From a virus, in the IMG/VR virus record IMGVR_UViG_3300037041_000399, positions 1-64,000 of that record: a stretch of DNA of 64,000 nt, one strand, 5' to 3'. Below are positions 14,029-60,810 of the stretch, piece after piece; position 1 is the first letter of the stretch; the number at the start of each line of letters is the position of its first letter. The translations under genes were made by a program, and so were the position numbers. The notes under the pieces were generated by a model. The model was not told the DNA's origin and searched no databases. It saw only the letters and a list, made by a program, of their open reading frames with translations.

Positions 14029-15621
14029 ATGACAGGCGTCGTTAAAACAGTAGCAGATCCTTGCCAGACGTACCTTCATTTTATATCTTCTTGGGCCAAA
14101 AGTCGCGCTGTTTGTAACGGTGAACGTGCAGTTAAAGAGATTGATAGCTCTTTAGATTTAATCAGAATGACAAATCTATTGTTACCATTCTCTCCCTCCA
14201 TGAGCGTTAGACAGTACGAATTCTACAAAGCAGAAGCAGAATTGCCAGGCATTACAGCACAATTTGCTAAGATGCTAGTAGGTGGTATGTTGAGAAAACC
14301 CCCTATTATTGAATTACCTGAGAATGCGCCTGAAGAAGCATTAGACTGGCTTACTAATAACATTGGTAGAGATGATTGTACTCTTGTAGCTTTCTTAGAT
14401 GATATCTTATGGGAAGAAGTACAGACTTCTAGAGCATGGATATTTGTAGATTATCCTAATGTAGAAAATCCAGATGCACTAGATAAAGAAGTTAAAGATC
14501 AAATTAAACCATATCCTATCTTGCAAAAAGCTGAAACAATTATTAACTGGTCTACTACAACAAATATGTTTGGCAAGACAGTATTAAATCGTGTTATTGT
14601 AAAAGGATATATGGATGATTATTCTGTAAACGAATTTCATGCCACTCGTGTGCCTGCTGTTTGGGTACATGAATTAGATGAGAAAAATGAGTACAGAATT
14701 AGAATTTATGCTGGTACTGTTGCAGACAATGGTGACCAAACAATTAAGCCAGGGGATGCTGCTAGTAGAGGCGATCGTTTATTACCTTCAGGCGGCTTTG
14801 AGTTAGTAGCAGTTTTAGACAGCATTATGTCTAATGGTGAAAAATTAACTCACATCCCTGCATGGCCTTTGAACGGCAATATCACTCCTGTAACACCCTT
14901 GTTAGCACCTATTGTTGACAAAGAAATTAGCTTGTACAATAAGATTAGTAGACGTAATCATTTATTATATGGTGCTTCTACGTATACACCTGTTATTGCA
15001 TCTGATATGCCAGACGAAGAATTTGAGGATATTGTGAATTCTGGATTAGGTGCTTGGATACGACTAAGACAGGGCGATACAGCGACTGTACTAGAAACGC
15101 CTACAGCAGCTTTAGCAGATATGCAGGCGGCTATTGCAGCTACTATGGATGAGATGGCTAAGCTTGGTATTAGAATGCTAACAACAGAAAACGAACAATC
15201 TGGTGTTGCGTTAGAGATACGTAATGCCTCTCAGACCGCACAGTTAGCTGTTTTAAGTACTAAAATATCAAATACAATGAAGCAAGTTATTTGCCTAATG
15301 CTTAACTGGCGTTATAACTTAGATTGTGAAGCTTGTGATATTACATTTGAGCTGTCTGCAGATTTTGATCCAGTACCATTAGGCGCTGATTGGCTAAACT
15401 TAATTACACAATGGTATCAAGGCGGATTATTGCCAAGATCTGTTTGGTTACAAATGTTGAAAGCTAATGATATTCTAAATGCTGAATATGATGACGAAGA
15501 GGCATTAGCAGAAGTTAATAACGATCAGCAAATTATCCCTGCTGCAACTAAATACAATGATCAGTATGCCTTGCAAACTGAGGCAGCTGCAACTGGAAAG
15601 GCCTCTGCGCCTAAGGAGTAA
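14029..15621 (+). CDS. Portal protein, DUF4055-like
   Basis: This 530-residue protein should form the dodecameric portal ring through which DNA enters and leaves the head. The N-terminus (WAKSRAVCNGERAVK ... QYEFYKAEAELPGITAQFAK) and the phrase MLVGGMLRKPP are typical of the DUF4055 portal-like family. The C-terminus is helical and Ala/Gln-rich. Length is normal. It lies between the endolysin and the MuF-type protein, the usual portal-MuF order. Confidence 0.85.
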   Translation: MTGVVKTVADPCQTYLHFISSWAKSRAVCNGERAVKEIDSSLDLIRMTNLLLPFSPSMSVRQYEFYKAEAELPGITAQFAKMLVGGMLRKPPIIELPENAPEEALDWLTNNIGRDDCTLVAFLDDILWEEVQTSRAWIFVDYPNVENPDALDKEVKDQIKPYPILQKAETIINWSTTTNMFGKTVLNRVIVKGYMDDYSVNEFHATRVPAVWVHELDEKNEYRIRIYAGTVADNGDQTIKPGDAASRGDRLLPSGGFELVAVLDSIMSNGEKLTHIPAWPLNGNITPVTPLLAPIVDKEISLYNKISRRNHLLYGASTYTPVIASDMPDEEFEDIVNSGLGAWIRLRQGDTATVLETPTAALADMQAAIAATMDEMAKLGIRMLTTENEQSGVALEIRNASQTAQLAVLSTKISNTMKQVICLMLNWRYNLDCEACDITFELSADFDPVPLGADWLNLITQWYQGGLLPRSVWLQMLKANDILNAEYDDEEALAEVNNDQQIIPAATKYNDQYALQTEAAATGKASAPKE

Positions 15622-15623
15622 AA

Positions 15624-16187
15624 ATGAAAAGTGTAAGAAGAAGTATGGCTCTTAAGGGCAATACAAATGCTAAAGGAGCTAGAGGTGGCGCTACTGTTGG
15701 TGCTATTGGCGGTTTATTTGGTGTACCAGGCTCTTTAGTGGCTGGTATGGTTGCACAGAATCATGCCAACAAGTCATTAGGCACAGCTAATAAAGCACAA
15801 GGCGAACGTGTTCTTAGTAGACAACGTAAGGCGTCAACTGGAATCGGAGCAGCTTCTGTAGGCGCATCGATTGGTTATAAGTCGGCGATGATGGCTAGTC
15901 CTGCAACAATGCTAGCAGGTTTTAAAGGTGGCTCTATGATATCGAGTGCTGCGTTAGCTTCTGGCGTTGGTATGACAAAAGGAATGGTTGTTGCTGGAGT
16001 AGGCGGTGCTGTTGCAGGTGCTATTATTGGTGGCGGTATGAATTACTTAGCCTCTCGTGCTGGTTCTGCAATTATTGGAAGTCCTGAGAAAAAGAAAAAT
16101 GTAGCGCGTGATGTAAAAGCACTACAAGCACACATGAAGGCAGGTAAACCCTTATCTGCCACTAAGATGACTAAACTCGCTTATTAG
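15624..16187 (+). CDS. Gly/Ala-rich protein, possible internal or ejection protein
   Basis: The 187 residues include several Gly-zipper-like hydrophobic stretches (GATVGAIGGLFGVPGSLVAG at about 22-41, and VVAGVGGAVAGAIIGGG at about 126-142) separated by basic segments (KKKNVARDVK). Such Gly-rich hydrophobic segments are found in membrane-inserting proteins. It lies between the portal and the MuF-polymerase genes. I infer, without direct proof, a virion protein that could help DNA or polymerase cross the host membrane. Confidence 0.5.
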   Translation: MKSVRRSMALKGNTNAKGARGGATVGAIGGLFGVPGSLVAGMVAQNHANKSLGTANKAQGERVLSRQRKASTGIGAASVGASIGYKSAMMASPATMLAGFKGGSMISSAALASGVGMTKGMVVAGVGGAVAGAIIGGGMNYLASRAGSAIIGSPEKKKNVARDVKALQAHMKAGKPLSATKMTKLAY

Positions 16188-16195
16188 GTTTAAAA

Positions 16196-19100
16196 ATGGC
16201 CGTTAATGCTAACACACAAATTTATGACAAGACGCTAGATCGTGCTGCAATGACACGCCTTTATGAAAGAAGAGTCTCCGGAAAAGTAGATTTAATCATT
16301 GATGGCCATGTCCTACGTCTTGACAAATTAATAAAAGCTTTTGAAAGTATGAACCCCTTTCGTAAAGAACTGGATAGAGAACTTACAAAGACTTACAAAA
16401 ATGTAAATAATACTGTACATAAAGACTTATTGTCTTTAACAACAGACCAGTTATCTTTTGCCTATCAAAAGGTGGAAGTAGCTATGGGTAATATTTGGCG
16501 TACAGAAAGACCTAAGCAAAGAGTTGCAGAAGAAATAGCACTAGCAAATCCACTTCACAAAAACCAAACAATGGAACAAGGTTGGAGTGGGATTGCTAAT
16601 AATGAAAAGATTAGACTAGAAGCTGTAATACGTAAAGGTATTGCTGACGGAAAGACAATGGACCAGATAGCTCTTGAAGTTCGTACTGGTAATGTACATA
16701 AGATTACAAGAACACAAGCTAAGGGTTTAGTTATTACTGCTGTTACTTCTGTGTGCTCTCAAGCTGATCATGCAATCTATAAAGCAAATGGTAAAGCCTT
16801 ACAAGGGTGGCAATATGTATCTGTTCTTGATGCTCGCACAACCCCTATCTGCGCTGGTCGCGATGGGCATATTTATGACATTTCTGATACTGTACATCTC
16901 CCTCCAGCTCATTGGCATTGTCGTTCAACAACTACTCCTGTGTTTAAATCATGGGAAGATATGTCAAAGCTTGAAGGAGTTGCACAGGTTCGTAAACGAA
17001 ACTTAGCAGGACTTACGGATGATCAGAAAGCCTTTTATGATGGCAATACACCATTAAGAGAAAGTTATAATGACTGGCTGCTAAGACAACCTCAAGACAT
17101 CCAATTAAGACACTTAGGTGATTATAAAAAAGTTAGTATGTTTAATAGTCAGCAGTTAACTTTAGACAAATTTACGAATGATGAAGGCAATACTATTGGT
17201 ATTACTGAACTGAGACGTATGACGGACTCTACGTATACTCTTCCAAATGATACACAAAAGTTTGCTAATGCTAAAGCTAAATTAGATGCGATGCAATTAC
17301 ATGCAACAACGCCTGAAGCCTTTTATCAAGATACAAAATTAGTAAATACATTAAGAGATTATTATTTATTACAAGCTGGCGAATTAGATGGTACTCTATC
17401 CCTCACAAACTATCGCGGTTCCCTCTTACATACCAAGAAGGCTACCAAATCACGAGTACTCAACAGCTTGCCAACAGAAGAGCAAACAATCTTCAATCCA
17501 GTTACAGGTCGTTACGAAGACGTCAGATTGTACCAACCAAACGTTGAGGTATTAAATAATAACCTAAGATTACTACGTGAAAGCCCTGTATTAAAGCAAG
17601 AAGATAAAGACTTCATTGAGAAGTTTATTGGCAGTCTTGATGAAAAGATGGGTGCTAATGAAAGAGCTGCTGTAGCAGATAATCTTCGTATTATATTCAC
17701 TAGGTTCCGTAATAACGGAGAGCAATGGGGTAACTTCAAGGCTGTAGTACAAGGTCAGATTAAGTTTGATGTAATGAATGTATCAGATTCTCTTGAAACA
17801 CAATTAAGAAGAGATACTGATGTACTTAAGAAATTAACGCAAGACAATTACATTGACCCTATACTAGGCCCTACTCAGCTACAAGATCTTCATGATAATT
17901 TTATCAACAATATTCGTGCTAGAAATAACTGGGAAGATAGTGTTGCTCCTAAGATTGCTAGAGAATTACGCAATGTATTTGATTACAAGATACCTATTAA
18001 ATTAAAAAGAATGCCTAATGGCAAAGAACGATTATCAGAAGCTGATTTAGATCAATTTTATTTACGATTTGCGCACAGATTAAGTATGGCAGATATGCCG
18101 GATAGAGATCAATTTGCAGTTGCATTAGGACGTGACTTATATAATATGTCAGGCTTAAATGGTAATCGCAAAGAATGGTATGATTTAGGGATGTCAATGT
18201 TAGAAGCAAAGAATGTTACTAAGTTCTTTGAAGTAGAAACATTTGGCGTTCAAAAGCGAAGAATGAAAAGCAGATTGAGCAACAGTCTGTTTGGCCCTTA
18301 TTATGACACTCTGTCATATAACATACGGGTTACTGATCCTCGTGTACAAGAGTATGCGCAGCTCACAAGGAAAGTGGAAGTCGGCCTACGTGTTGGCGTT
18401 ACATCTGAGAAGAACAAGTTGCTATTCCGCGAGGGTTATAAAACGTACTTTATTGACAGAGGTCTCCTAGGTTTAGAAGATACTCGTATTCCCATTACAT
18501 CTACAAACAGCTTTAGTGATTTTCCTGAACAATTTGTTGATAAGAACCTAGCTAATGCTTTAAATTGGGCATCAAAGTCTAAGTATAAAATTGACGAAGA
18601 TTTTTATGATTTTACAAAGAAATTATTGTACTTCGAAGATGATAGAGGCAACGCTAAGAAGTATAACGAATTGAATGAATATAAACACTATATTTCTTCT
18701 AGGGGAGATGCCTATGAAAGATTCAAATCGATGGACTGGTTACGGACACGAGGATATTCTTTTAGTAATCATGCTTTTGTTGACCATCGTGCTCGTATAT
18801 ATGATCGCGGACTCATTAGTCCTCAGTCAGGAGAGTCCTTCAGACCATTCCTTAATACCGAACAATCAAAAGTGTTGGGTGAGGCTGGATACAGAAACTT
18901 CAGAGACCAAATAGGTGCATTTATGGGCGGTCTTAATGATACTTTTGAAGGGCGATATAATTCATTATCCTTTACTGGTAGACAAAAGATTGCTGATAAG
19001 CTATGGCCAGATATGGTAGATATTGGCAACAAGATGCTACGTGGTAAGCCTGCTGATCTTCGTGCTATATTAGAATCAGAAATGGTACAATTAGTAGATG

Positions 19101-21511
19101 GTGAAGAACTAGGCAAGTTCTTTAGGTTTGCTATGGAATCAGCTAAGATAGATAATCATTTAAAAGCTGGTGGTACTATGGAAGACTATAAGACAGCCTT
19201 AGCTTTAGAACAAGATGCTTCATCTTCTGGTGCTCAAATTATTGCATTAACAACAAAGAACAAACAGTTAGCTGAATTATCTAATGTTGTACCTACAAAT
19301 CAAAAACGTAGATTGTACGATGAGATTGCTGCTGCCACTTATAATGATCCTCGTTTTAAAGTATTAAACGAGAAGTTGGGGTTAAATGAAAAAGATTTAC
19401 GGAAGGCGGCTAAAGCTCAGAACATGGTTACTTTTTATGGTGCAGGTGAACGAACTGGCATCCTTAATGTGGAAGGCAAGCTCGCAAAGATTTTGGAAAA
19501 GGCACCTGCAAAGCCTATAGAGGTTAAGGTAACAGAGGGTTTGTTATCTGAAAGACAAGACTCAGCTGGTTTACTACGTGTATTAGGTGTTGAAAACAAA
19601 ACAGATCCAAATTATGTAGGGACTCCCGAAGAGATTATTAAAGCTCAAGGTGATCTAATTGCTAAAGCTATGAAAGGTAAGTTATCTCCTGCAGAATTAA
19701 AAGATACATTTAAATGGTTACATACTGCTGATATTGAATTGACAGATGCTCGTAGAGAAAGAGCTACATATAAAACATTTGATCATAAGACTGGTGAAAA
19801 ATTCTCTAAAGAAAAGATAGCTGAAAATAAGGCTAAATTTGAACAGCGCTCAAAAGGCGATACTAAGAAATATATTGCTATGCAAGTTGTAGAAGAACTC
19901 GGTGAGTTTTTGGATGAGCATTTAAAATCTTTAAATGTCCCTTCCAATTCAAGAGCTTTTAAATTACTAGAAGCTCAAAAGCGTATCTTAAAGTCAAATA
20001 GATTTGGTGAAGACACTATTATTAAAGATGAAGCTAGTGTTTATAATTTAAAGACAAATAAACAAGCTGCTGAAATGGCTTTAGAAGATGCAGAATTTAC
20101 CGTTGCTACAGCTGATACTGAAAAGACTATAGCAGATCTTAACTTAGCATTACAAGAAGAATTAGTCAATGTAACTAAAAAGCCTGAATCTTTTGCATCT
20201 ACTTTAGTTGTTAAAGCATCTGATCGTGATAAGGTACTTAATGAAATATCTGCAAGAGCAGCGAGATACGAAAGGTTTGACCCTGAAACAGCTAATGAGC
20301 TTAAAGAACTCAGAGCGAATGTACGAGATATCTTTAATAAAGGTCAGGATCCTGGCGACGATATTATGGAAGCGCTCTACTTCCTCGATCCAGAGACTAA
20401 ACAGTTAGTTGAAAAGATGTCTCATCAATATGGCAGAGTCGTAACACCTGCTGACTTCCAAGCTATTGCTAAAATTATGTCTGAACAGTTAAGTGAGCAA
20501 GTACCTATCTTAAAAGACTTTACTAAGTTCTTTGGTAGACTTGCTGAAGACTTTTTAATTAACTCTAAGCCTTCTAAATCTGCATTTGATTGGAAAGATA
20601 TTGGTGCTACTGGTATTCTAGGCACACGTAAGAGAGGTTATGTACTACCTGATCGTGTGAGTGAAATACTAGGGTTAAAAGCTGGTGAGCCTCTGTCTGA
20701 AAAGTTTTTGAGCAGATTTAACGGATGGAAACCAGACGGACCTTTATCGGACTTACTATTTGGTGTTAAAGCACCAGATAATAGACGTACAGGTTTTAAA
20801 GTCTTTAAATTAGAACCTATTGAAAAAGCAACTATATCAAAAGGTTTTGAAATATTCTATGCAAATAAACTTCCTACGTCATGGACTAATGTGCCTTGGG
20901 TTAATTTTGACGGTAAAATTATCGAACAAAATTTCACTCAGACATTTGAGGAGCGTCTAGCTTATAAGGATAAAGACGGGAATTGGGTTAACAATATACT
21001 ACAAATACCTCAAAAGACAGAAGCTACATGGTGGGAACAAGTCGTAAACGCAGATGGGAAAATTAATGATATCGCAGACGCAGGAAAAGCAAGAACAGCT
21101 TTTGCCGTTAACGGGAACCATTCCAACGACGCCACATTGGTCAAGAATTTCCATTTGTGGGGAAAGGAAAATGATATTGCCACAAGTACAATCCACGATG
21201 CCTTCTTTGCAAACGCAGCAGATATGCTCAATGCAAGAGCAGGGATTAGAAAGTTGTATGCACGAACTCTTGATGCGTCACCCGTCTTATCTACTCTGAA
21301 TGAGATGAAAGCTCGCGGGTTGCCTAAAGAACTATATGATCAGTACTTACAAGAAGCTATTGACAAGGGATTAATACCTGTAGAAGGGGTGTCCGTTGTT
21401 GGCGGCAAAGTACTAAAGAAATCCGATATTCTCACCAAAGAGAATATTATGTCAGATATACCTGATCCTACTAAATTTGAGGATGATTGGGGTTTTTATG
21501 GCATAGGCTGA
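16196..21511 (+). CDS. MuF-type head protein fused to a single-subunit RNA polymerase (putative virion RNA polymerase)
   Basis: This 1771-residue protein has two recognisable parts. Residues about 165-250 are an SPP1 gp7/Mu F domain, with C219, an H-containing strand and the HWHCRS signature at 239-244. From about residue 700 onward it is a T7/N4-type RNA polymerase. A VDHRARIY segment is at 862-869. Motif A has D1007, G1012 and Q1014. Motif B has R1069, K1073 and Y1081-G1082. Motif C has H1667-D1668. Spacings within each motif equal those of T7 (D537/G542/Q544; R627/K631/Y639; H811/D812). The B to C distance is about 587 residues against 173 in T7, so a large insertion is present. Next to the portal gene, it is likely packaged and injected to start transcription. 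Confidence 0.88.
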   Translation: MAVNANTQIYDKTLDRAAMTRLYERRVSGKVDLIIDGHVLRLDKLIKAFESMNPFRKELDRELTKTYKNVNNTVHKDLLSLTTDQLSFAYQKVEVAMGNIWRTERPKQRVAEEIALANPLHKNQTMEQGWSGIANNEKIRLEAVIRKGIADGKTMDQIALEVRTGNVHKITRTQAKGLVITAVTSVCSQADHAIYKANGKALQGWQYVSVLDARTTPICAGRDGHIYDISDTVHLPPAHWHCRSTTTPVFKSWEDMSKLEGVAQVRKRNLAGLTDDQKAFYDGNTPLRESYNDWLLRQPQDIQLRHLGDYKKVSMFNSQQLTLDKFTNDEGNTIGITELRRMTDSTYTLPNDTQKFANAKAKLDAMQLHATTPEAFYQDTKLVNTLRDYYLLQAGELDGTLSLTNYRGSLLHTKKATKSRVLNSLPTEEQTIFNPVTGRYEDVRLYQPNVEVLNNNLRLLRESPVLKQEDKDFIEKFIGSLDEKMGANERAAVADNLRIIFTRFRNNGEQWGNFKAVVQGQIKFDVMNVSDSLETQLRRDTDVLKKLTQDNYIDPILGPTQLQDLHDNFINNIRARNNWEDSVAPKIARELRNVFDYKIPIKLKRMPNGKERLSEADLDQFYLRFAHRLSMADMPDRDQFAVALGRDLYNMSGLNGNRKEWYDLGMSMLEAKNVTKFFEVETFGVQKRRMKSRLSNSLFGPYYDTLSYNIRVTDPRVQEYAQLTRKVEVGLRVGVTSEKNKLLFREGYKTYFIDRGLLGLEDTRIPITSTNSFSDFPEQFVDKNLANALNWASKSKYKIDEDFYDFTKKLLYFEDDRGNAKKYNELNEYKHYISSRGDAYERFKSMDWLRTRGYSFSNHAFVDHRARIYDRGLISPQSGESFRPFLNTEQSKVLGEAGYRNFRDQIGAFMGGLNDTFEGRYNSLSFTGRQKIADKLWPDMVDIGNKMLRGKPADLRAILESEMVQLVDGEELGKFFRFAMESAKIDNHLKAGGTMEDYKTALALEQDASSSGAQIIALTTKNKQLAELSNVVPTNQKRRLYDEIAAATYNDPRFKVLNEKLGLNEKDLRKAAKAQNMVTFYGAGERTGILNVEGKLAKILEKAPAKPIEVKVTEGLLSERQDSAGLLRVLGVENKTDPNYVGTPEEIIKAQGDLIAKAMKGKLSPAELKDTFKWLHTADIELTDARRERATYKTFDHKTGEKFSKEKIAENKAKFEQRSKGDTKKYIAMQVVEELGEFLDEHLKSLNVPSNSRAFKLLEAQKRILKSNRFGEDTIIKDEASVYNLKTNKQAAEMALEDAEFTVATADTEKTIADLNLALQEELVNVTKKPESFASTLVVKASDRDKVLNEISARAARYERFDPETANELKELRANVRDIFNKGQDPGDDIMEALYFLDPETKQLVEKMSHQYGRVVTPADFQAIAKIMSEQLSEQVPILKDFTKFFGRLAEDFLINSKPSKSAFDWKDIGATGILGTRKRGYVLPDRVSEILGLKAGEPLSEKFLSRFNGWKPDGPLSDLLFGVKAPDNRRTGFKVFKLEPIEKATISKGFEIFYANKLPTSWTNVPWVNFDGKIIEQNFTQTFEERLAYKDKDGNWVNNILQIPQKTEATWWEQVVNADGKINDIADAGKARTAFAVNGNHSNDATLVKNFHLWGKENDIATSTIHDAFFANAADMLNARAGIRKLYARTLDASPVLSTLNEMKARGLPKELYDQYLQEAIDKGLIPVEGVSVVGGKVLKKSDILTKENIMSDIPDPTKFEDDWGFYGIG

Positions 21512-22178: not shown

Positions 22179-22196
22179 ACCCCGTTAAATTAACCC
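22179..22196 (+). promoter_or_regulatory. Repeated 18-mer, copy 3
   Basis: ACCCCGTTAAATTAACCC lies 185 bp before the scaffold gene and is followed by CAGCCGTCTCCCCC and an AT hairpin, as in copies 1 and 5. Confidence 0.7.
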
Positions 22197-22214
22197 TCAG
22201 CCGTCTCCCCCTAT

Positions 22215-22232
22215 ATTATAATTAATTATAAT
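22215..22232 (+). other. AT-rich leader hairpin 2
   Basis: ATTATAA at 22215-22221 pairs with TTATAAT at 22226-22232 around TTAA, 18 nt after copy 3 of the 18-mer. A further AT-only stretch with TATATAAT-like sequence follows to 22255. Confidence 0.45.
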
Positions 22233-22263
22233 GATATATAATATAATATATATCTCTTATATA

Positions 22264-22281
22264 ACCCCGTTAAATTAACCC
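22264..22281 (+). promoter_or_regulatory. Repeated 18-mer, copy 4
   Basis: A perfect copy of ACCCCGTTAAATTAACCC 85 bp after copy 3, without the C-rich stretch. It is the nearest copy to the scaffold and capsid genes. The 200 bp between 22164 and 22363 hold only this leader. Confidence 0.68.
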
Positions 22282-22363
22282 TAAATATAGAAATTTAGAG
22301 ATTCCATCATTATAGATTGTATCTGTAATATATAAACGAGTTGTACTCAAAGGAAATAAACAA

Positions 22364-28153: not shown

Positions 28154-31100
28154 ATGTCAGGTATAGTCATCGAAGTCGAAGCAAAGGTATCCCAAGCAGA
28201 GACTTCATTAGAACGATTAAACGATGTAGTACGAAATATCACAGCAAGCCTTAAAGCTGTTGATAAAGGATTGGAAAATCTATCACTTAAGAAAGAAGTT
28301 CCATTAGACAAAACAGAGAAAGCTTTAAATAATTTATCACCTAAAATCGATAAGTTGCAAAGCAGCACTGATAAGTTATTTAAAGGTTCTTCTAATGTAG
28401 ATAATCGATATTCAAAGGAATTTGTTAATATTGGTGTATCTGCAGAAATGGCAGGTAAGCGAGTAGAAAAGGCTTTTAATGATATTACATTAAAACCTAA
28501 CGATGCTGCATTAAAAAGTTTTTCATTTGAAATTGATAGAACATCTAGAAAGATATCTAAACAAATGTCAGAAGGTATTTCTAAAAAAGATCTTAGAGAT
28601 ACTGAAAGTAGTCTATTAAACATAAATAAAAGTATTACAGGTATTTCAGGTAATATTACAAGTGCCGTTGGTTCTATTGGTACTGCAATTGCCGCTTTTG
28701 GCTCTATTGCTACCATTGGAATGTTTGTAAAATCACTATCAGATATTACGTCATCTTTTACTGAAATAGAATCTAAGATTGCAATGGTAACAGGGCGTAC
28801 TGTTGCATTCTCAGAAGCACAACAAGCACTGTTAAAAGTTGCTGCAGAGACACGTACTACCTATGGAGCTACTGCAGATGCCTTCTCAGGTGTTGGGCGT
28901 GCTATGAAAGACGTTGGGGCAACTAGTGAGCAACTGTTCAGAGTTACTAAGGTATTGCAGCAATCGCAGGCGTTGTCTGGCGGCTCGTCAGAGGGCTTTA
29001 AAGCGGCAATGATGCAGTTGAATCAAGGCCTTTCTTCTGGCGCACTACGGGGCGAAGAACTCAATTCTGTGCTAGAACAGGCACCTGCTATTGCAGACGC
29101 ACTTGCGCGGTCTTTACACGTTTCTGTAGGCGCATTAAAAGGAATTGCTGAACAAGGTAAACTAACAACTTCAGTAGTTTTCAGTTCATTGCTAAAGCAA
29201 GCCGATTATATTAATGATAAATTCAAAGCTATTAACCCAACGCTAGGCAATGCAATGGAAGCTGGCTTTGAAGGTGCTAAACGATTTGCCTTTGAATTAG
29301 ACAAAGGATTAGGTCTCTCTCAAGATCTTGCAAAAGCTGTTTCTAAACTAACATCCGGGTTAGGCACAAAAACCAGTGGCATTAGAGTCTTTGCAGCTGA
29401 CTTTGATGTACAATTAAAAGAAGCAATTATACGTGTTAAATCGTATATGCAGCCTTTGACACAAGTCGTTACAGCACTGGGGCAAGAATTTTATAGAGTA
29501 TTTTCTTCTTGGAAAATTCCAGAAGGTTCCCAAAAGCCTCTAGATGATCTGATACGTAAGTTTACAATATTTAAATTTGTACTTACGCATACAGACCCTG
29601 GAACAGATACTAAGATTTTATTTAGAAAAGTAGAAACTGCAATTGTAGACAGTGTAAAAACTATCAGTGATTTATTAGATAAGGGGATAAAACTTAGCGA
29701 TAAGTTTATTATGCCTATTATTGATAAGATTAAAGATTTGTATCCTAAAGCCAGAAAAGCGTTATTAACAACCCTAGATGGTCTCAGAAGTGTCATAAAA
29801 GAATCAATGTCAGTACTTGCTGACGGCTTTGAAATTGGTGCTGAATTTGTTAAACCTATTATTAGAGAGTTGACTAAGCTGCCAGATCAGCTAATACTAA
29901 TTTTTAATAAAGTAGCCAAGGCTTTAGGTAGTGCTGCTTCTGCTACCAGTTCGCTTGCTGATGGCGTTGCAGATTTATTAGATTCTGTTACCCTTAAAGT
30001 AGGTGATTTAGACGGTATTTACGAGTACTTAAATAGCTTTAAAGATAAAGTAATTACTATCTTCTTTAAAATATGGGATGCAGTTATTGGCCACTCATGG
30101 TGGACTGATACAATTGATAGTATTATAGATACTTCCAAGTCTCTTTGGGAAAAAGCTTCTCCTGGCCTTATACGCTTTAGAGATAGTATAATTGCGTTAT
30201 TTAAAACTATTGCTAGTACGGTTACTACAGCATTTAATGATGCTATGGTTAAGCTTAATATAGAACCTAAATCAGTCTCATTTAAAATACCAATAAGTAT
30301 AGATGATGCTAAGGTACAATTTGAAGGCGTGTATGACAGCTTTGTAAAAACGTTTGATAAATTTAAAGATGATTTCCCTTTACTATTCAAAGCAATAGCA
30401 GCAGGCGTTGGTGCGATTCTTGTAGGAATGTTCTTACCTTCTGGCAATTTTGTATTATTGCTTGAAGCAGCTTTAATTTCAGCTTCGATTCAAAGTGCTA
30501 CAATGTTTGCAGAAACAATTGGCAGAGACTTAGGGGACGCAAGCCTTTTAGCTGGTTTAGGTAATAACTTAGGTGCTGCAGCTGGAAAGCTCTTTGCATC
30601 ATTCCTTGCTAATATGCCACTACTTGTTAGCGCATTCCTTGGCTTTATTAGTGAATTTACAAAAGAATTCTTAAAGCAATTACCTATCATTGGAGTGGCA
30701 TTTAAAGCTCTCTTCGGAATAGCTGGTGCCTTTGGCATGGCAGGGCCTTTAGGTCTTGTAGGTGCTATATTCTTCGGCAGAGGTATATTAGGCATAATGG
30801 CAACATTTGGCTTTTATACTGAAGCGATAACGGGCTTCATGGCAAAAATGGCAATTCTTGGTAACTTCTTTGGAGGCGGTGGCGGGTTAATCTCTAGGTT
30901 ATTATTTGGAGCAGGTAGAGCTTGGCATTTTCTTCCTATATTAGGATTAATAGCATCTCTATCAGGTGCTTTTGATGCATTGTATAATGATTCTAGTCTG
31001 AGTGCTTTAATCATTAATGGCGGTTTAATCTATTTTGCAATCTTTGGTAAAGGCGGTTTAGCTGGATTTGCTAAAATAGGTATGTTAGTTCGTGCTAATA

Positions 31101-34100
31101 TTGTAGGCATACTATCAGAGTTTACTGCAACAGCAGGATTAGCATCTAGTATTGCAGCTGGCGGTGCCTTTGGTCCAATGTTAATGGCTGGTATTCGTAA
31201 TTTCAGAAACTTCTTTAGAGGTGTTTCTGCGATGTCTGCAATGTTTTTCTCTTCTTCATTGAGCAGTTGGGCACAATACTTTACCAGATGGATAGCAGTT
31301 ACAGGCTTTTCTGGCAATATACTTAGATTCTTTAGAACCTTTTATTTAAATATCTTTGGTCCAATTACTGCAGCCTCATATTCCTTTGCACCGTTAGCAC
31401 AATCTTTTGTAGCTGCAATTAGTGCTATGAAAGCAGCTGCTGTAAGCTTTATAATGACTGCAAGAACTGCAGGTATTGCGATGGGCGGCTGGCTTGCTGC
31501 ACTGACAAGAATGTTATTAGGTGGACCAGGGATTTTAATACTTGTTGGATTAATTGCTTCTTTATTTAGCAAATCAGCTGATGCTGCTGAATCCTTTAGA
31601 GAAGAAAGTAACAAAGGTTTCTTTGAAAACTTAACTGATAATATTGCTAATCTTGATATTATAGGCTATTTTAGAGGACTGAAAGATAAGCTTGATGCAA
31701 TTGATTTTGGAGGGATGCTTGGTGTAAACTTTAAAGTCTCTATATATGCTGCTCTAACAGCAGTCACTGCGGCTTTAATGCTGTTTAGTACAAATGTACG
31801 TAAAACACTTATGCTCTTGGCTGGCGACTTGTTAGTATTTTCAGGTAAAGCTTTATTCAGCATTGCAGCATTATTTAGTCCTGTAGAAGTTTTAGCAGCT
31901 GGCGCACTATTGCTCAAAGCAGGCTGGTGGGCTGGTGTAAACCTCAATAGAGGTTTAACAATGGGCTTTGCGCTTAAAGATACTATTATCTCAATTATTA
32001 TGAGACTTCAGGCAACAGCAGCTTTAGCTGGTGCAATGAGAACCTTGGGCATAACAATGGCTGTCGGATTGTTAGGAGCGTTTTCTGCAGAGGCTATTGG
32101 ATTTGCAGACTTCTCAGCAATGTCTGTGTTAGGCTTTACTGCAATTGCCGCATTTATTTATCCTATTTTAAACGGTTTAACGGTGATTCCTGCTGCTATT
32201 ACTGCAGCATTTACTGGCGGTACGATTATGCAAGCTATTGGTGTATTATCGGCTAGAATATTATTGATGTTTGCACCATTAGGCTTAGCTGCTGCAGGTG
32301 CCTTTGCAGGCGCATGGGCAGGTGGCCAGTTTGGTGATGACATGGCTATGATAGGTGGACTTGCTGGCGCTTTGTTAGCCTTTAAGTTTACTGAATCAAT
32401 TATGACAGGTATCACTGAGTTCTTGGCTGTTGGTGCAAGACTCATGACATTAGGTTGGGTAGGTTTAGCCTTAACAGCTGCTGGACTTATTTATGCATGG
32501 TTATTTGGTAGTGACAGTACTTCATTATCACAAGATTTAGATAGTATAATTGAAAAGACTCGTACGCTGTTTGGTATGAAACCTAATCCTGTTGATTTTA
32601 GAACTGGATTGCGTTTAGATGATTTACAAGCAGCTGCAACAATGGGTATTAAGATTGATTATAAAATTGATCCTATTAGTGCTGCATTAGCTTCTGACTC
32701 CTCCAAAGAAGCTGTAACAAAAGCCACAGAAGATTTAGCACAGGCTATTAGAGATGCAAAAGCAGATTGGGATATTTCAGGTTTAACTCAGGATCAAAGA
32801 GATCTATTACAGAAGAAAGTAAAAGCTACTGCAGCTCGTGTTGATGCCGCTTCTGCTTCTACGCCTTTTGTATTTAAAGACTTTGGAAAGAACTTGACCC
32901 AAGCTCAAAGATATCGTCCAGATACTCTTTGGGGGCAATTGCAAAGACAAGGTGCACAAGCAGCTTTAGATGCTGAGTTTGAAGTTAAATTAAAGCAATT
33001 GTCTATAGCAAGTAGAATGCCATGGAACCAGACATCAGCTGCTAGATTAGATCTTAAAAGCCAAAGAGATGCAGTTTCTCTTTCTAAAGATACTACTTAC
33101 AATGCTAACTATTCTCCATTAGATGCTGAAACAGCTAAGTTAGCGCAACTTACAAAAGGCTTTGATAATCTTGGCCCTGTTGGTCCTAAGATGATGGCGC
33201 ATCTCAAAGATACTGGTAGAGAGATTATAGCTCTAACTAAGCAAATAAATGAGAATAAGTATTGGTTCTGGGAGCACCCTAACGGTAAGATATGGGAAAA
33301 TGCTGCTCCAGATCCTAAGCTAATTGCACAAATGAAAATGCTTCGTGCAGAGTATAAATCAACTGCAGAAGATATTGTGCGTTATAGTACTCTCATGAAA
33401 GCTGCTCAATCTTTTGCAGGCAGAATAAGTTCTATTGCTAGCAAGTTTGATATGAAAGGTGTTGAAAGTAAATTAGACACTAATAAAATATTTGCTAATA
33501 GTGACACTGCTGTTAATCGAATGGAAAAGCTTGGTGAAGCTGCTGAAAGACTTTCTAAAAGCCTTGAGGGTGTATTTGATGTAAAAGCTAAGAATGATAT
33601 TATTCTTAATATTGAAGAAGTTGTTAAGCAGAAAGAAAGACTTAAAGAAGATTCTGTACAGTCTTACAAGTATGCATCTCCTGTAATACCTAAGATGGCA
33701 GAAGAATTAGGATTAGGTGCAGGCAAAGCAGCTGCAGGATTACCTGAAAATATATCAGGCCCTGTATTAGCACGTATGACTGAATTAAAAAGACAACGTG
33801 AAGACTTTTTAAATAAGCCAGTTAGACCTGTAAATCCTGATTTAGTGCCTCAAGACTTTGTAAAAGAAACTGCGCAAAATAAGCATGAAACAATGGTATA
33901 CCAAGGTGATATGCGCCTTTGGCAGACCCGTAAAAAGAACCAAGAAACTGTTATTAAAACACTTGAAGAAGAGTTTGCAAATAATAAACTAGGTTCTACG
34001 CAAGCTGCATTAATTCAGGCTAAAAGAGAAGCCACTAAGATCCAGATGGAGGAGCCTGTTAAGCCAGCATTAGCAATGCTAGATGCTAAAGCACAACAAG

Positions 34101-37100
34101 CTAAAATGGAAAAGCTTCGTATTGAATACAAACAGAAATTAGAAATCTATAAGAATGATAATTTTGAGTATTTTGATAAGTACATGAAGAATCTTGTTGA
34201 GTCTTTTGATCTTGGTGACGAGTTACGTAAAGAGCTTTGGAGCAATGTCAAAACAAAACCAGGACAAATGGCGGATGTTGCTAATAAGCTTAATATTGAT
34301 ATTGGCGATTTGTATAGTACATTTGGTGCTGATGTAGCTGCAGGCTTACTACAACAAGCTGATGATGTTGCTGCTGCTATTGATCGTGCTATGGCTACTC
34401 AACAGTACGATAAACTACCAGCCTTAAAGCAACGTAAGGCCGCATTGACAACTAGAATGGCAACCCCTGAGTTTAAATCTCGTGGTGCTATGGCAGAATC
34501 AATGGGACTTGATCAGAGTTTAATCCCTGGTATTAGCACAGACGTTTTAGATTCGTTAGAAGCTGGTTACAAAAAGATTAAAGAAATTGATACGTATCTT
34601 GAGATGAACAAGAATACTATTAGCGATGCCACTTATCAAGCTAAGATACAAGAGAAGTTAAATGAACAACTCTCAGGAAAGAAAGCTGCGTTAGATGCTA
34701 GCTTTGGAAGACCTTCTTTTGAACTTCAAGCACGTATAGGAACTAATCTTACGGGTGCTCAGTTATCATTAATCTCACAAACAGATGTAGATAACTTAAA
34801 AGCTGCTGAATTAAACTTAGCTAAAATTAAATTAGACTTAGATGGTTCAAATGCTAATGCAGATACTTTGACAGACTATTTCAAAGCACTAGCAGATGAA
34901 GCTGAAGCTCGTTATCAAGCATCTCGTAATGCTGCATCCAAAACAGGTGCAGGAATGATGCAATCACTAGCTGATGTTAATTTTAGTGGTGCTAGTAAAC
35001 TTAACTTGTTACCTCCTGCAATTGTACAAAATGTAATTAAGCTTAGTAACTATATTAAAGATCTTAGACATAATCTAGAACAACCAACCTCTCCTGAAGC
35101 TTTTATTGCAATTAATAAAGAAATTGCTAAAACAGAAGAGGCGTTAAGTTCTATCAGAGATCAGTATACTAGTCTCCAAGACAAAATTAGTTCTGTCAAT
35201 GAAGTGTTTGGCGTTAGCTTTAGTAATATTGATTTTGTATCGTTAGGCTCTTCTTTGACTAGCACTTTGATAACTGTTGCTCAAAGTCTTAAAACAGAAC
35301 TTGCAAAAGAAATGGAGAAAGGTTTCTTAAGCGTAAGAGCTGAGAGTATTATTAAGGTATTAGATAGCTTAACTACAACTGGTACTTACTTAAAATTCTT
35401 TGCTGACTTTAAGAAAAATGCTAGAGAAAGTTTAACAGATGGAATGAAATCTGCTTTTGATAAGATTAAATCAATTGCACCTAACTTTGGCTTTAGTCAA
35501 AATCAATTCCAAATGATGGATAAAGGTTCTCGTGACCAATATTCCAAACAAGCTTCTGACATAACTGCATTAACAGCTATTCAAGGGCTAAATGGTTTAA
35601 CACAGAATCAAACAGATATCATCAATCAAAAACAACCTGTTGATGAAATGATGAAGCAACTGATTGATTCGTTTGATACTAATCAGTTAAAACAGTATGA
35701 AAAGCTAACTTCATCTCCTGTAGATCTTCAATTAAAAGCTGCTGATATACAATTAGAAGCTGCTAAAATGAACCTGGAGGCGGTTAAAGGCAAGGCACCT
35801 GAAGTAACAACACCTTTCAAAGAAGCTTCTAAGCAAACTACAGAAAGAGCTTTAGCCACAGGCCCACGAAGTGGTGTAACTTCATTAGCTGAAATGGCTA
35901 AGGATATTCCTTGGTCAGCTAATGCGCCTAAGCCTAAATTTAGACCTGATGTAGAACGGTGGGATTCATTAATACAAGACGCAGTGAAAGAATTTCCACG
36001 TGTAACAGTAGAAATGGTTAAGGCCGTTGTTGAACATGAATCTCGTGGATTAAATATTAAGTCAGGCATTACTCCAAAACCAGGTTATAAAGAAACCTCA
36101 TTTGGATTAGGTCAGTTTAATGATGCTACTGCTAAAACATTTGGAGTTGATAAGACAGATCCTGCGTCTACAATAAGAGGTATTGCACAATATTTATCTC
36201 TAAATATGAAAACGTTTGGAAATACTCGTGATGCCTTTAGAGCATATGCCGTTGGGCCGACAGGTGCCAAACAAGGTTTAGGTCAAGATAAAGCTGATGA
36301 GTTTATGACTACATTAGCAACTGGACGTGCGCCTAAATCTGCACCTGTAACTACTTCTCCTGAGCTTATAAAGCCTACTGCTGAATCTGTTGCTAAATCT
36401 ATTGAAGTCGCTGTTTCAAAACAAGGGGAGCTTAGCAGAGCTTTCAATGTAGACCTCATGGCTAGGATTAAAGAAATAGGTAAACAGAAACCGTTTGAAG
36501 CATATCAATTGGATAAACTTCAAAATCAGATTAACCCAAATGTTAGTACTCCAGCAGAATTATTATCTACTCATGGAGCTAAACTTGGCACTGATATTGT
36601 CGGTCAGATGAATGAAACTCAGATATCTTTGGCTACATCTCTTAACGAAAAATTGATGCAAGTTCAGCAACAATTTAATGCAAATCCAAGTACAGCTTTG
36701 CAACAAAGTATTACTACATACTCAGAAATGTTAAAAGCATTTACTGAAGGTGTTACAGCGGATGCTGAAGAGCTTGGTATAGCTAAGATGGTTGCATTCT
36801 CTTCTGCCAATTCTACCAACATCAGTAAATTCTTAAGTAGATTTAGCGGTATCAGTGAAGAACTTGTCATGACAATGAATGAAGCTGATAAAGCTTTAGC
36901 AAAGAATATGACAATTATTCGTGAGGATCTAAAAGATAAGCTAGCAGCTGACGCTAAAGCTGGTAAATCAACTACTGCTACTGCACTTAAAATATTAGAT
37001 TTAAGCGATAATATTTCAGACCTAGGTAATAAGGCAATGGATGCAGCTAAAGAAATTAAAACAGCTGGTGAGTCTTTTGCTTCTGGATTTACATCTTCCT

Positions 37101-40266: not shown

Positions 40267-40895
40267 TGATCATTTTATCAGATCATAATATACAAATGTT
40301 AGAGACTCCCGGTGCATACGCAATATTTGTGGTATCAATTTTAAATAAGGATAATGAAGTTATTTATGCTTCTACTACTCACTTTTCAGATATTATTATA
40401 CCATGTGCATCTTTATTTAGTACGCCAGTCAAGGATTTAGGCGGTTATGTAATTTCCAATATGACGTATATTGCAGATGGTTCTCTAATGGCTTTACAAG
40501 CCCCTAAATTATCAACTTCAGTGGATAGAGAGCAATATAGTTTAAACATTGTGGATCCAGACTTACTTATTATTGCTGCAAAATATAATGGTCTTATTGG
40601 CTGTAAACTGAAGGTTGCATGCTTGTTTGCCTCTAATAGCAATATTAATATAGCTAAAGAAAATTTATTAATAGTGTATGCGGGTAGAATTACAGGCACA
40701 ACACATACAAGAAAAACTCAACACCAAGGAGAGTCATTTTTGACTATTATAGGCGGTTCTCCAATGTATAATTTAGATCAAAAGAATGGTATTTATTTTT
40801 CTGATCCTAAAGTTAAAGAAAGAGACCCTCAAGATACTTGCGCAGAAAGAGTTTATATATCATCTAGAAACTATGCTTTACATTGGGGAAGATAA
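40263..40895 (+). CDS. Tail hub-like minor tail protein
   Basis: The 210-residue protein begins with a beta-rich domain and has a KLSTSVDREQYSLNIVDPD strand, YAGRITGTTHT and, at its C-terminus, a FLTIIGGSPMYNLDQKNG to DTCAERVYI segment. This layout resembles hub or cell-attachment minor tail proteins (DUF2163-like) upstream of J. The start is ATG 40263 or the adjacent ATG at 40266. Its stop forms TAATG with the next start. Confidence 0.65.
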   Translation: MMIILSDHNIQMLETPGAYAIFVVSILNKDNEVIYASTTHFSDIIIPCASLFSTPVKDLGGYVISNMTYIADGSLMALQAPKLSTSVDREQYSLNIVDPDLLIIAAKYNGLIGCKLKVACLFASNSNINIAKENLLIVYAGRITGTTHTRKTQHQGESFLTIIGGSPMYNLDQKNGIYFSDPKVKERDPQDTCAERVYISSRNYALHWGR

Positions 40896-43800
40896 TGACA
40901 GATCCGTTTTCGATAATCATGGCGATTGTTTCAATTGCAATGACAATCTATCAAATCATTGCAGCACCTAAGCCAAAACCGCCTCCACAAAATATGCCAC
41001 AAACAACTGGCATTGATGTTACAGCAGATGGTGTTCCTGCTTATTTACCTGTTGTATATGGTAGAGCACGTGTTAATGGCATACGCGCTTGTACTGACTT
41101 AAGCGCGGGATATGTGTATAACAATACACCTGAAGGGTTTAAGCGCTTTAATCCGACAGCGACTTCTGCACTTACAGCTAGGCTGACAGAGAGTAACACA
41201 GGATTAAAACAAGCTGTCATGGAGACTCAGATTGCACTAGCACATGGGCCTATTCATGATGTTGTTGATATTCTTATTGAAGATTTTGGGCCTGACAATC
41301 CTAATTTTGCTTATAGAAATGACAATACTGCACATAAGAATATTACATTACGTAATAAATTACCTACAGCTACCTGGCAAATTGATGTCTGTAAGGCAGG
41401 TGGTGTTGCGCACCCTAATGGAGCTTCTACCAATACTTTTAAAGATATTGCTTATGCGCATTGCACATTAGTATTAGATCCGGTAGAACCTCAATTTAAT
41501 GGAATGCCAGATATTTCCTTTCTGGTAGAAGGCATAAAAGTGCAGAAATGGAAGTTAGTTGACAATATTCCTGTTGTTGATGGTGCTAAGCAATATTCTA
41601 ACAATCCTGCTTGGTGCTTAATAGACTACCTTACTAACGAAATATATGGAAAAGGTGTTACTATCGATGAAATTGATTTGCACTCTTTTATTAAAGTAGC
41701 TAACCTTTGTGAAACTGTATTTCCAACCCAATATAAAATTGGTGGACAGATCAACGCTGGTGTTCCTGCGCTTCAAACGAGAAAAATGTTTGAATGTAAT
41801 ATCGCACTAGATACTGGTAGACCAATGCGTGAAAACATTGATAGCTTACTGTCTACAATGAATGGCGGGATGCTAACATGGTCTGCTGGTAAATATAAGC
41901 TAAGTGCAATCCACCCTACAACAAAAGATGACTTAATTGAACTAACAAAAGTAAATGGCCAAGTAAACTCTATTAATCAGTTAACAGATGATGATTTAAT
42001 CTTAGATCAAGATCTAGAAATTGCATGGCCAGATGCAGGCACAAGGCTTAATCAAGTTACTATTCATTTTAAGAATGAAGCTAGAAACTTTAAAGATGAT
42101 GCAATTACGTGGCCTGTGTTATATAAGGACGCTGAATCTAACGTATCATCTACTTCGCAAAAAGTTCCTGGACATAAGTCTACGTATCAATGGTTAAAGG
42201 TTAGTAATGATGGCAAATTAAATTGGAGTAAGTGGGCCTTCCCTACTTATTTTGAGCAATTTGGGGTTAACAACAGAGGGCCTGTAGATCACGGTACTGA
42301 TGTGTATCACGTGCTAGTACAAAAGAATTCAGGTGGTAATTATTTCTTAGATGCTGTTTGTACGGCTCGCATCAATCGTATTAAGATTGTAAGAATGTAT
42401 CCAGAAAACCCTGGAACAGCCGAAACGGTAATGATAAATTCTACTCAGGCAGCTGCTCCTAAATTCTCTGGAAACTATGCTACGAGGTTTAACACAAACG
42501 GTGACAAATTCTATTATAATACACTACACAGTGGTGTTGTTACAATAGGTTATTATGGTGGCGACTGGTGGTGTGGTATAACGCGTGTAATGACAGACAC
42601 TACAACACAAGCTGTTTTGACTATAGATCCTGGAGAAAAATATTATTTAAGAATTGAAATAGAGTATACTAATACGCCTTGTTATGCAGAAAGTCATAAA
42701 GGGACTGGACCTGAAAATCGTGATGCAGTGTATCTAGACTATAACCCTGCAGATGGTGTTGTTTATGGATTACAACTAATTGATTATGCAGCTGGAGAAA
42801 AAGTATTATGGCAAACAGGTCAAGATTATTATGAATCATTTGATATTGCCACAACAAATCAGACTAATACTCTTATAAAAGCTAATCAGTTACACGAAGA
42901 ATTAAAAGCAATTGATGGTGACTTATTATTAGAAAAGGATTTCACAATCCCCGGAATTAGTACTATTTACCATGCTTGGTTTAGAGGTGAAGAAGTAGTT
43001 AGAGCTAGTCGTTTTGGATTTAAGCTTTCACTAAAGTATTTAGTTAGAAATATGTATTTAGAGCCTGGGGATGTATTTACGCTAAATTCAGATACATTAG
43101 AGTTATTGCCGTACAAAGGTAATTGGACAGCTGGTAGTAGTTATTCTAAAGGAAATATTGTGTATTATAATAATAATTATTATATACGTATTTCAGGTTT
43201 TGATGTAGTAAGTGCAACGGTACCTAGTGCAGATATTTCATGGGATACTACAGTATATCCGCTACCTTTTAGGGTAACAGCTAGTTCTTTGAATGAAGAG
43301 AATATATGTTCTATTTCTGCTGACTTTATTACAAAAGATTTCTTTGTAAGTGATGTAGATTTACCAGACTTTAAACATGACTTAGAAAGCCCTATCTATA
43401 GATTAACGGATACAACAATTAAGTATTTTGTATTTGAATCCGCTCGTAACAGTACAATAGGTAGCCCCGGAACACTAAGGGTATCTTCCAATAGCAGACT
43501 AGTAACAACATATACTTATCAAGCTTGTTACGATTATGAGTTAGATTCTGGCAAAGAACCTACATTCATAACGTTAGCTGAAACAGGTGCAGTGTATTAT
43601 GAAGTACCTCCAACAACAGCTACAACTGCAATCTTTAGAGTAATTCCTAAAGACTTTGAGAATAATACATTAGTGCCTGCTTATAGTATATTAGAGGGTG
43701 TACATACTTTATCTCATTTTGGAAATGCTTTAGTACTAGCTGCTGATGACAACACAATTATGTATACGGATGACAAGCCTGCAAAAGCTACTACAATGTT

Positions 43801-52457: not shown

Positions 52458-52475
52458 AACCCGTTAAATTAACCC
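52458..52475 (+). promoter_or_regulatory. Repeated 18-mer, copy 5
   Basis: AACCCGTTAAATTAACCC starts just after the GC-rich island. The following TTCTCCGTTCCCCC and hairpin match copies 1 and 3. It heads the early gene block. Confidence 0.7.
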
Positions 52476-52492
52476 TTCTCCGTTCCCCCTAT

Positions 52493-52510
52493 ATTATTAA
52501 TTCTAATAAT
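52493..52510 (+). other. AT-rich leader hairpin 3
   Basis: ATTATTA (52493-52499) pairs with TAATAAT (52504-52510) around ATTC, 17 nt after copy 5. The stem differs from those at 278 and 22215, but pairing is kept, a sign of selection on structure. Confidence 0.5.
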
Positions 52511-52545
52511 GCGGAAATAATAGTATCTTATATGAAGTACTATAA
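52511..52545 (+). repeat. Leader repeat copy 1
   Basis: GCGGAAA, five bases, then GTATCTTATATGAAGTAC and ATAA. The same arrangement recurs at 53622-53656. GTA-CTT and AAGTAC can form a small hairpin with a bulge. It may be a regulatory RNA element or promoter. Confidence 0.55.
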
Positions 52546-53621: not shown

Positions 53622-53656
53622 GCGGAAAATGGGGTATCTTATATGAAGTACAATAA
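53622..53656 (+). repeat. Leader repeat copy 2
   Basis: Same GCGGAAA-N5-GTATCTTATATGAAGTAC block as at 52511, one change in the flanking CAATAA. It heads the 53692 gene. Confidence 0.55.
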
Positions 53657-53691
53657 GGTACCTCAATCAATTAATTATTTGGAGTATTATC

Positions 53692-55540: not shown

Positions 55541-55595
55541 CCCTCTCTGGCTCCTTCGGGAGCTGGGGAGGGCTTTCTCTCTTATTTTTTTTTTT
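55541..55595 (+). terminator. Strong rho-independent terminator before the RNA polymerase gene
   Basis: A 14-bp stem (55541-55554 with 55559-55572, three G-T pairs) closes a TTCG loop, and a long T-run follows at about 55583-55595. It separates the small early genes from the RNA polymerase gene, so the latter needs its own promoter or read-through. Confidence 0.85.
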
Positions 55596-55708: not shown

Positions 55709-55803
55709 GTGCTTTAATTTTGTTTAATGGCATTCGTATTGAAACATTTACGATGTTTATCTTTTTAACCTTAATACTACCTAGGAATCATAATGCGGAA
55801 TAA
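55675..55803 (+). CDS. Short membrane peptide overlapping the RNA polymerase start
   Basis: The 42-residue frame with AGGA five bases upstream of its ATG is hydrophobic (DSILLCALILFNGI and FTMFIFLTLIL). Its stop overlaps the polymerase start by 11 bases. It may act as a leader ORF coupling translation to the polymerase. Confidence 0.45.
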   Translation: MKNILQDSILLCALILFNGIRIETFTMFIFLTLILPRNHNAE

Positions 55804-60762: not shown

Positions 60763-60780
60763 ACCCCGTTAAATTAACCC
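60763..60780 (+). promoter_or_regulatory. Repeated 18-mer, copy 6
   Basis: ACCCCGTTAAATTAACCC follows the stop of the previous gene and is 31 bp before the SSB-like gene. No C-rich stretch or hairpin follows. It heads the replication genes. Confidence 0.68.
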
Positions 60781-60810
60781 CTTCTAAACATTTATACATG
60801 AGATTTAAAA

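Follow-up and report, generated by a model that had tools for sequence, protein, structure and literature searches.

A T7-class RNA polymerase joined to a phage head-morphogenesis (MuF) protein in viruses with siphovirus-type tail genes

The fusion gene and its neighbourhood

The DNA analyzed here, which we call the window, is a stretch of 64,000 nucleotides covering positions 1 to 64,000 of the 78,236-base IMG/VR virus record IMGVR_UViG_3300037041_000399, in which the + strand holds nearly all genes. ORF calling gave an intact reading frame, without interruption, at 16196-21511 (+), whose 1771-aa product joins a MuF head-morphogenesis domain to a single-subunit RNA polymerase. The gene for a 530-aa portal protein lies upstream at 14029-15621 (+; PHROG 145, 2.6e-57). 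Its stop at 15621 agrees with the 575 bp that a sequence-only reading of this DNA, made earlier without database searches, had placed between portal and fusion gene, and the interval holds a single Gly/Ala-rich ORF of 187 aa (15624-16187, +) that belongs to no known family and has neither a Pfam nor a PHROG match. The arrangement is general, since a portal gene was found within 2.4 kb upstream of the fusion gene in all 55 relatives with enough upstream sequence.

Further along the window are genes of a siphovirus-type tail, among them one for a 3826-aa tape measure protein (28154-39634). Tape measure proteins correspond to about 1.5 angstrom of tail length per residue, and the predicted tail is therefore longer than 500 nm, which is unusually long for a siphovirus and bears on the passage of a large protein. 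A 2504-aa protein (40883-48397) has a central tail fibre J match at aa 204-405. RNA families were also sought in the window, and none was found.

Domain composition and conserved residues

The N-terminal part of the fusion protein contains a Phage_Mu_F domain at aa 142-246 (16619-16933, +; Pfam PF04233, E=1.3e-13), which at 52 bits against a curated cut-off of 29.6 is sufficient to call a MuF domain, and a head morphogenesis family (PHROG 241) matches aa 53-380 (16352-17335) at 4e-58. The C-terminal part is matched by the RNA_pol family at aa 1610-1714 (PF00940, E=1.8e-11; 44 bits against a cut-off of 22) and by the RNA polymerase family PHROG 414 (7.5e-22). Between these lie aa 381-860 (17336-18775, +), a linker and probable N-terminal polymerase part with no family match, for which no significant Pfam match was obtained. 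This long stretch of low similarity leaves room for a processed protein, in which MuF and polymerase are separated by a head protease or in the recipient cell and just one of them is packaged or injected. Such cleavage is very unlikely in our judgment, as none of 110 aligned genes has its reading frame divided between the halves.

We judged invariance in an alignment of 134 homologues, wherever a sequence covers the residue in question. Because the patterns used in the homologue search took in motif B and the NHSN stretch and left out motifs A and C, the conserved catalytic aspartates do not stem from the way in which homologues were selected, and conservation in motifs A and C reaches homologues at about 31% identity. 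On the MuF side, C219, Y227, H239, C242, R243 and S244 are invariant where covered; C219 and the HWHCRS string at 239-244 had been proposed as a MuF signature from the letters alone, and the residues are where that proposal put them. Motif A, DASSSGAQ (aa 1007-1014; 19214-19237, +), aligns to T7 DGSCSGIQ, and D1007, S1009, S1011, G1012 and Q1014 are invariant in 134/134 covering sequences; the pattern D.[ST].SG.Q turns up only once when the entire window is read in six frames. Motif C, HDAF (aa 1667-1670; 21194-21205, +), is equally fixed, with H1667 and D1668 invariant in 134/134. The residues that the sequence-only reading had assigned to motifs A (D1007, G1012, Q1014) and C (H1667-D1668) thus stand. 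Its motif B needs qualification: all four of its residues are present in RKAAKAQNMVTFYG (aa 1069-1082; 19400-19441, +), and K1073, Y1081 and G1082 are invariant in 135 rows, but R1069, the counterpart of T7 R627, is kept in the window protein and its clade and is Ala in the marine clade.

Two further conserved stretches were identified. A DxxGR-type motif, D863-H-R-A-R867 (18782-18796, +), reads DSRGR in the marine clade, and D863, R865 and R867 are invariant in all 127 covering sequences. NGNHSND at aa 1639-1645 (21110-21130, +) is the counterpart of T7 NFVHSQD in the T7 alignment, with N1641, H1642, S1643 and D1645 invariant in 135 rows of the homologue alignment.

Predicted fold of the polymerase half

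An AlphaFold2 model of aa 572-1771 was built with 58 aligned sequences and reached a mean pLDDT of 73 and a pTM of 0.67, with high confidence near the motifs and low confidence in the optional insert described below. Searched with Foldseek against the PDB, this model returned T7 or mitochondrial RNA polymerases for all of the top 50 matches, and the best was T7 RNA polymerase (E=3.4e-12, probability 1.00); TM-scores by target length were moderate, at about 0.3 to 0.53 overall and 0.46 for the best T7 match. Among viral models the first match was A0A7S5FRK7 (1.2e-45), a protein of 1463 residues, which is the length of the DSS3_VP1 head protein, followed by phage RNA polymerases. A profile of 58 homologues likewise finds T7 RNA polymerase (4.6e-7). 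The polymerase half has, as modelled, a T7-like fold, whereas a fold search with aa 1-860 gave no significant match, the best being mitochondrial RNA polymerase at E=0.29.

Structural search and profile comparison had both been suggested as checks on the fusion, the latter against N4 virion RNA polymerase (vRNAP) as well as T7 RNA polymerase. Only the T7 comparison was positive. Aligning the fusion family with N4 and DSS3phi2 vRNAP in hhalign gave a probability of 0.4% in the wrong register, with an N4-side profile of only two sequences, and phmmer found no match between the fusion protein and N4 vRNAP. Membership in the N4 vRNAP family is excluded on the profile and on the letters of motifs A and C, which follow T7; with an N4-side profile of only two sequences, a deep common ancestry of single-subunit RNA polymerases is not in question. 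The assignment of the C-terminal two thirds to a polymerase holds for the motifs and the fold, which match T7, but fails for aa 1103-1333 within it. With these provisos the central proposal of the sequence-only reading, a MuF-RNA polymerase fusion, is borne out by Pfam, PHROG, fold search and conservation. We consider the fusion of a MuF protein with a T7-class RNA polymerase established on profile, fold and conservation evidence. By the features tested the protein is a MuF protein plus a T7-class polymerase; that it synthesizes RNA is an inference only.

Insertions and introns in the polymerase

The exceptional region, aa 1103-1333 (19502-20194, +), lies between motifs B and C and is modelled mostly at low confidence. 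It is an inserted region outside the polymerase core, since it is optional and cleanly missing from most relatives. An intein or a known domain was considered for it and rejected, there being no Pfam match, no frame break and a clean absence in relatives. Other members of the family carry two unrelated in-frame inserts at one and the same site just before motif A, about 155 aa long in L081 and L082 and about 100 aa long in L004 and L028, and none of these has a Pfam match.

Motif B is a target of mobile elements in both polymerases that these phages encode, the fusion and a free-standing second enzyme (RNAP2, below). Several relatives have group I introns (Rfam RF00028) that split motif B codons of the fusion gene; these introns occupy two distinct positions, and some of them include an HNH gene. 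An HNH-bearing insertion at motif B also breaks the annotation of EBPR siphovirus 1 into gp47, gp48 and gp49, hiding the fusion. In three related genomes (G001, G005 and G008; contigs L188, L191 and L193), it is the RNAP2 gene that is interrupted, at the motif B Tyr-Gly near aa 513, by an insertion with an HNH-like ORF inside. Rfam found no group I intron above threshold in these RNAP2 interruptions, and an intein is excluded by the broken frames and the HNH ORF. On one of these contigs, a hammerhead type III match was noted below threshold at L193:4287-4342 (-; 34.4 bits, E=3e-4).

These data bear on whether the polymerase domain is catalytically dead and carried as structural or DNA-binding cargo. 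Similarity to T7 RNA polymerase is low outside the motifs and some members have large inserts near the active site, as a dead enzyme would allow, but none of the catalytic residues of motifs A, B (K, YG) and C varies across 134 sequences from two divergent clades. In addition, the repeated presence of selfish group I introns in motif B points to essential, highly conserved sequence there, the unchanging kind of site that is typical for such elements. We give a dead domain almost no credence.

Relatives and their distribution

By tblastn against phage records, EBPR siphovirus 1 encodes a full-length relative at 57% identity, and the cultured roseophages DSS3_VP1 and DSS3_PM1 (Naomviridae) encode one, gp108, at 31% identity. 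In DSS3_VP1, whose laboratory host is Ruegeria pomeroyi DSS-3, this protein has the accession YP_010105321. The annotations of gp108 and of EBPR gp47-gp49 say only head morphogenesis, minor head protein-like or hypothetical protein. Scans of IMG/VR returned 383 relatives for the window protein and 526 for the DSS3_VP1 protein, two sets that may overlap, and MuF is present in 110/110 homologues that are not cut off at a contig end. A chance or chimeric assembly is excluded, as the architecture recurs in hundreds of independent IMG/VR contigs and in isolates. A family of viruses with siphovirus-type tail genes has thus joined a portal-associated head protein to a complete T7-like RNA polymerase. 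In bacterial genomes, homologues were found in only two contigs of one metagenome-assembled Gammaproteobacteria bin, which does not allow a host to be assigned.

The related Pelagibacter phage Kolga encodes an RNAP2-type polymerase and lacks the MuF-polymerase fusion. In the polymerase's place, its MuF protein gp59 (L084:6001-7902) carries a C-terminal domain that resembles a metalloprotease, a weak match below the Pfam cut-off; N4 vRNAP is likewise fused to a metalloprotease domain (PMC5512222). In the open literature that we searched, no pairing of MuF with a virion RNA polymerase of this kind is described, in line with the earlier statement that no such fusion was known, and a remark in the original Naomiviridae description is not excluded.

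A second RNA polymerase and two families of promoter-like repeats

RNAP2 is a free-standing T7-like RNA polymerase of 739 aa encoded at 55793-58012 (+), with matches to PHROG 414 (5e-121), to the N4-like RNA polymerase family PHROG 2166 (1e-37) and to T7 RNA polymerase (E=2e-44). We observed strong homologues in 15 of 18 related records; the remaining three, one of which has a weak match, are pieces of 28-47 kb, all below 48 kb. RNAP2 is also present in the independent contig G019 and in DSS3_VP1, where it is annotated as RNA polymerase. No second polymerase was detected by tblastn in the 45 kb examined of EBPR siphovirus 1, a partial record ending at the lysozyme gene. Just before the RNAP2 gene of the window, at 55541-55583 on the + strand, there is a strong intrinsic-terminator-like stem with a T run.

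Two strand-specific repeat families accompany these genes. Motif 1, RACCCGTTAAATTAACCCT, has seven copies in the record, all on the coding strand (7/7, none on the other), where shuffled sequences give 0-1, and its copies precede the terminase, scaffold/capsid, early and SSB/DNA polymerase blocks and one more block. They include 243-261, reading ACCCCGTTAAATTAACCCT, and 343-361; 22179-22197, upstream of the scaffold and major head protein genes, and 22264-22282; 52458-52476, at the start of the early block; and 60763-60781, upstream of the SSB-like and DNA polymerase genes (all +). These are candidate RNAP2 promoters. Equivalents occur in two related genomes (G002 and G009) and a variant in a third (G010), while the DSS3_VP1 form, TAATAGGKTRCGTTAAAGAGGGGG, is T7-promoter-like and absent near the RNAP2 gene of that phage. 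Three window copies of motif 1 have a C-rich stretch (CCGTYCCCCCT) behind them, together with an AT-rich inverted repeat (262-310, 22198-22250 and 52477-52512), and a C-rich element also follows some copies in G002 and G009; it is possibly a terminator or processing site.

Motif 2, TGCGGAAA-n4/5-RGTATCTTATATGA (first half GCGGAAA), is mostly followed by a hairpin. The window has two copies, both candidate early promoters: GCGGAAATAAT-AGTATCTTATATGA at 52511-52535 (+), and GCGGAAAATGG-GGTATCTTATATGA at 53622-53665 (+), the latter followed by the hairpin TGAaGTAC-AATAAG-GTACcTCA. The hairpin is weak at the window copy at 52522. Two or three copies, all on the coding strand, lie 1.2-3.8 kb before the RNAP2 start in 13/13 window-clade genomes, and G019, examined once the motif was fixed, has three exact copies. 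The hairpins vary in sequence and are significant (mean stem score of 4.53 vs 2.40 in shuffles, a value that 0/500 shuffles reach), but the position of the start site relative to the hairpin is undetermined and a 5' leader hairpin is equally possible. Three marine genomes (G014-G016) have a counterpart, GTGAGAAAA-n-GCATCTATAATGA plus hairpin, upstream of RNAP2, and this contains TATAAT. G017 has only a weak copy of motif 2, and G014 has one full copy about 6.3 kb before its RNAP2 gene.

A proposed virion polymerase as the first step of a transcription cascade

In SPP1, the portal protein directs a few copies of the MuF protein gp7 into the procapsid, and delivery has been proposed for toxins fused to MuF (PMC6316719). 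The vRNAP of N4 is ejected, and the early genes that it transcribes include RNAPII, the second RNA polymerase of that phage (PMC12633501). From this knowledge and the anatomy of the window, we infer that the MuF-polymerase fusion is virion cargo that reads motif 2. Like SPP1 gp7, the MuF part would bind the portal and bring a few copies of the protein into the procapsid. The T7-class polymerase would enter the cell together with the DNA or before it and may then transcribe, from motif 2 promoters, the early genes of the 52.5-55.5 kb block, which leads into the RNAP2 gene. Once made, RNAP2 would use motif 1 promoters to transcribe the genes for replication, packaging and virion structure. The case for a packaged and injected polymerase is strengthened by the observed second T7-like polymerase and by the two separate families of promoter-like repeats, one of them confined to the block ahead of the RNAP2 gene. 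We regard a virion RNA polymerase in an N4-like cascade built from different parts as the probable reading, in which packaging, injection, activity and promoter assignment are all inferred, the assignment of motif 2 to the fusion polymerase from position alone.

Against this cascade, a chain of roughly 200 kDa must pass a long tail tube, and there are no virion proteomics or transcription data. The TATAAT in the marine motif 2 could also be read by host RNA polymerase, and this, together with the place of the fusion gene in the late structural block, suits a polymerase half that is active and is not the early enzyme. Made late, it would act in the same cell, in late transcription, replication priming or packaging coupling, with MuF as a tether to the portal and host RNA polymerase reading the early genes, as in T7. 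The gene content of Kolga (RNAP2-type polymerase, MuF with a metalloprotease-like domain and no fused polymerase) implies that host-driven early expression is workable nearby. Yet RNAP2 is already on hand for later transcription, and MuF is a protein of the head interior. Motif 2 also lacks a conserved -35 box and an extended -10, and sigma-70-like sites show no excess in the 52.2-56 kb region (11 vs 12.1 in shuffles). We find a late role of this sort unlikely, though it keeps more weight than a cleaved or an inactive protein.

If the virion polymerase cascade is correct, it has several consequences. To our knowledge, injected T7-class RNA polymerases have been thought confined to N4-like podoviruses, and the same outcome has apparently been reached here with a different polymerase lineage and simple MuF targeting, in abundant environmental phages, including marine ones. 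A roseophage protein labelled only "head morphogenesis" becomes a testable candidate virion RNA polymerase, two candidate promoter classes are available for in vitro assay, and MuF is suggested as a general carrier of large enzymes. The model also raises the physical question of how an enzyme of roughly 200 kDa passes through a long tail. For the Naomviridae, one may speculate that an injected polymerase could answer how transcription starts on unusual, deoxyuridine-containing DNA.

Comparison with known systems

T7 RNA polymerase shares the letters and spacing of motifs A, B and C with the fusion, but it lacks a MuF domain, is expressed in the infected cell as an early gene product and does not travel in the virion. 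The virion RNA polymerases of giant phages (phiKZ/AR9) and crAss-like phages are delivered with the genome, as we propose for the fusion; these enzymes, in contrast, are of the two-double-psi-beta-barrel type, a fold unrelated to T7-class RNA polymerase. MuF-fused effectors of the SPP1 gp7-like kind share an N-terminal MuF beside the portal gene and an enzymatic C-terminal cargo (PMC5512222, PMC6316719), but there the cargo is a toxin or host-modifying enzyme (toxin, ADP-ribosyltransferase, PBECR or metalloprotease). The closest known proteins are homologues of the fusion itself, gp108 of DSS3_VP1 and DSS3_PM1 and gp47-gp49 of EBPR siphovirus 1; deoxyuridine (dU) is known in DSS3_VP1 DNA (PMC12697855) and not for the window clade.

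The nearest functional parallel is N4 (Schitoviridae). As with N4 gp50, the gene of a single-subunit RNA polymerase lies in the late structural block, a second T7-class polymerase is encoded in the genome (at 55793-58012, in a block whose earliness is inferred), and predicted early hairpin-associated promoters lead to that second polymerase. The parts differ: N4 gp50 is a protein of 3500 aa that lacks MuF and has its own dedicated NTD and CTD, its motif A is DGVTNG (type DGxTNG) and its motif C FDG where the fusion family has DASSSGAQ and HDAF, and N4 is a podovirus with a heterodimeric RNAPII, whereas the window phage has siphovirus-type tail genes. The odds lean only modestly towards an N4-like programme having evolved independently, through a T7-class RNA polymerase loaded by portal-bound MuF and a dedicated class of hairpin-associated early promoters that would turn on the second polymerase, such that phages of the window clade and the Naomviridae-like marine clade would, like N4, start transcription without host RNA polymerase.
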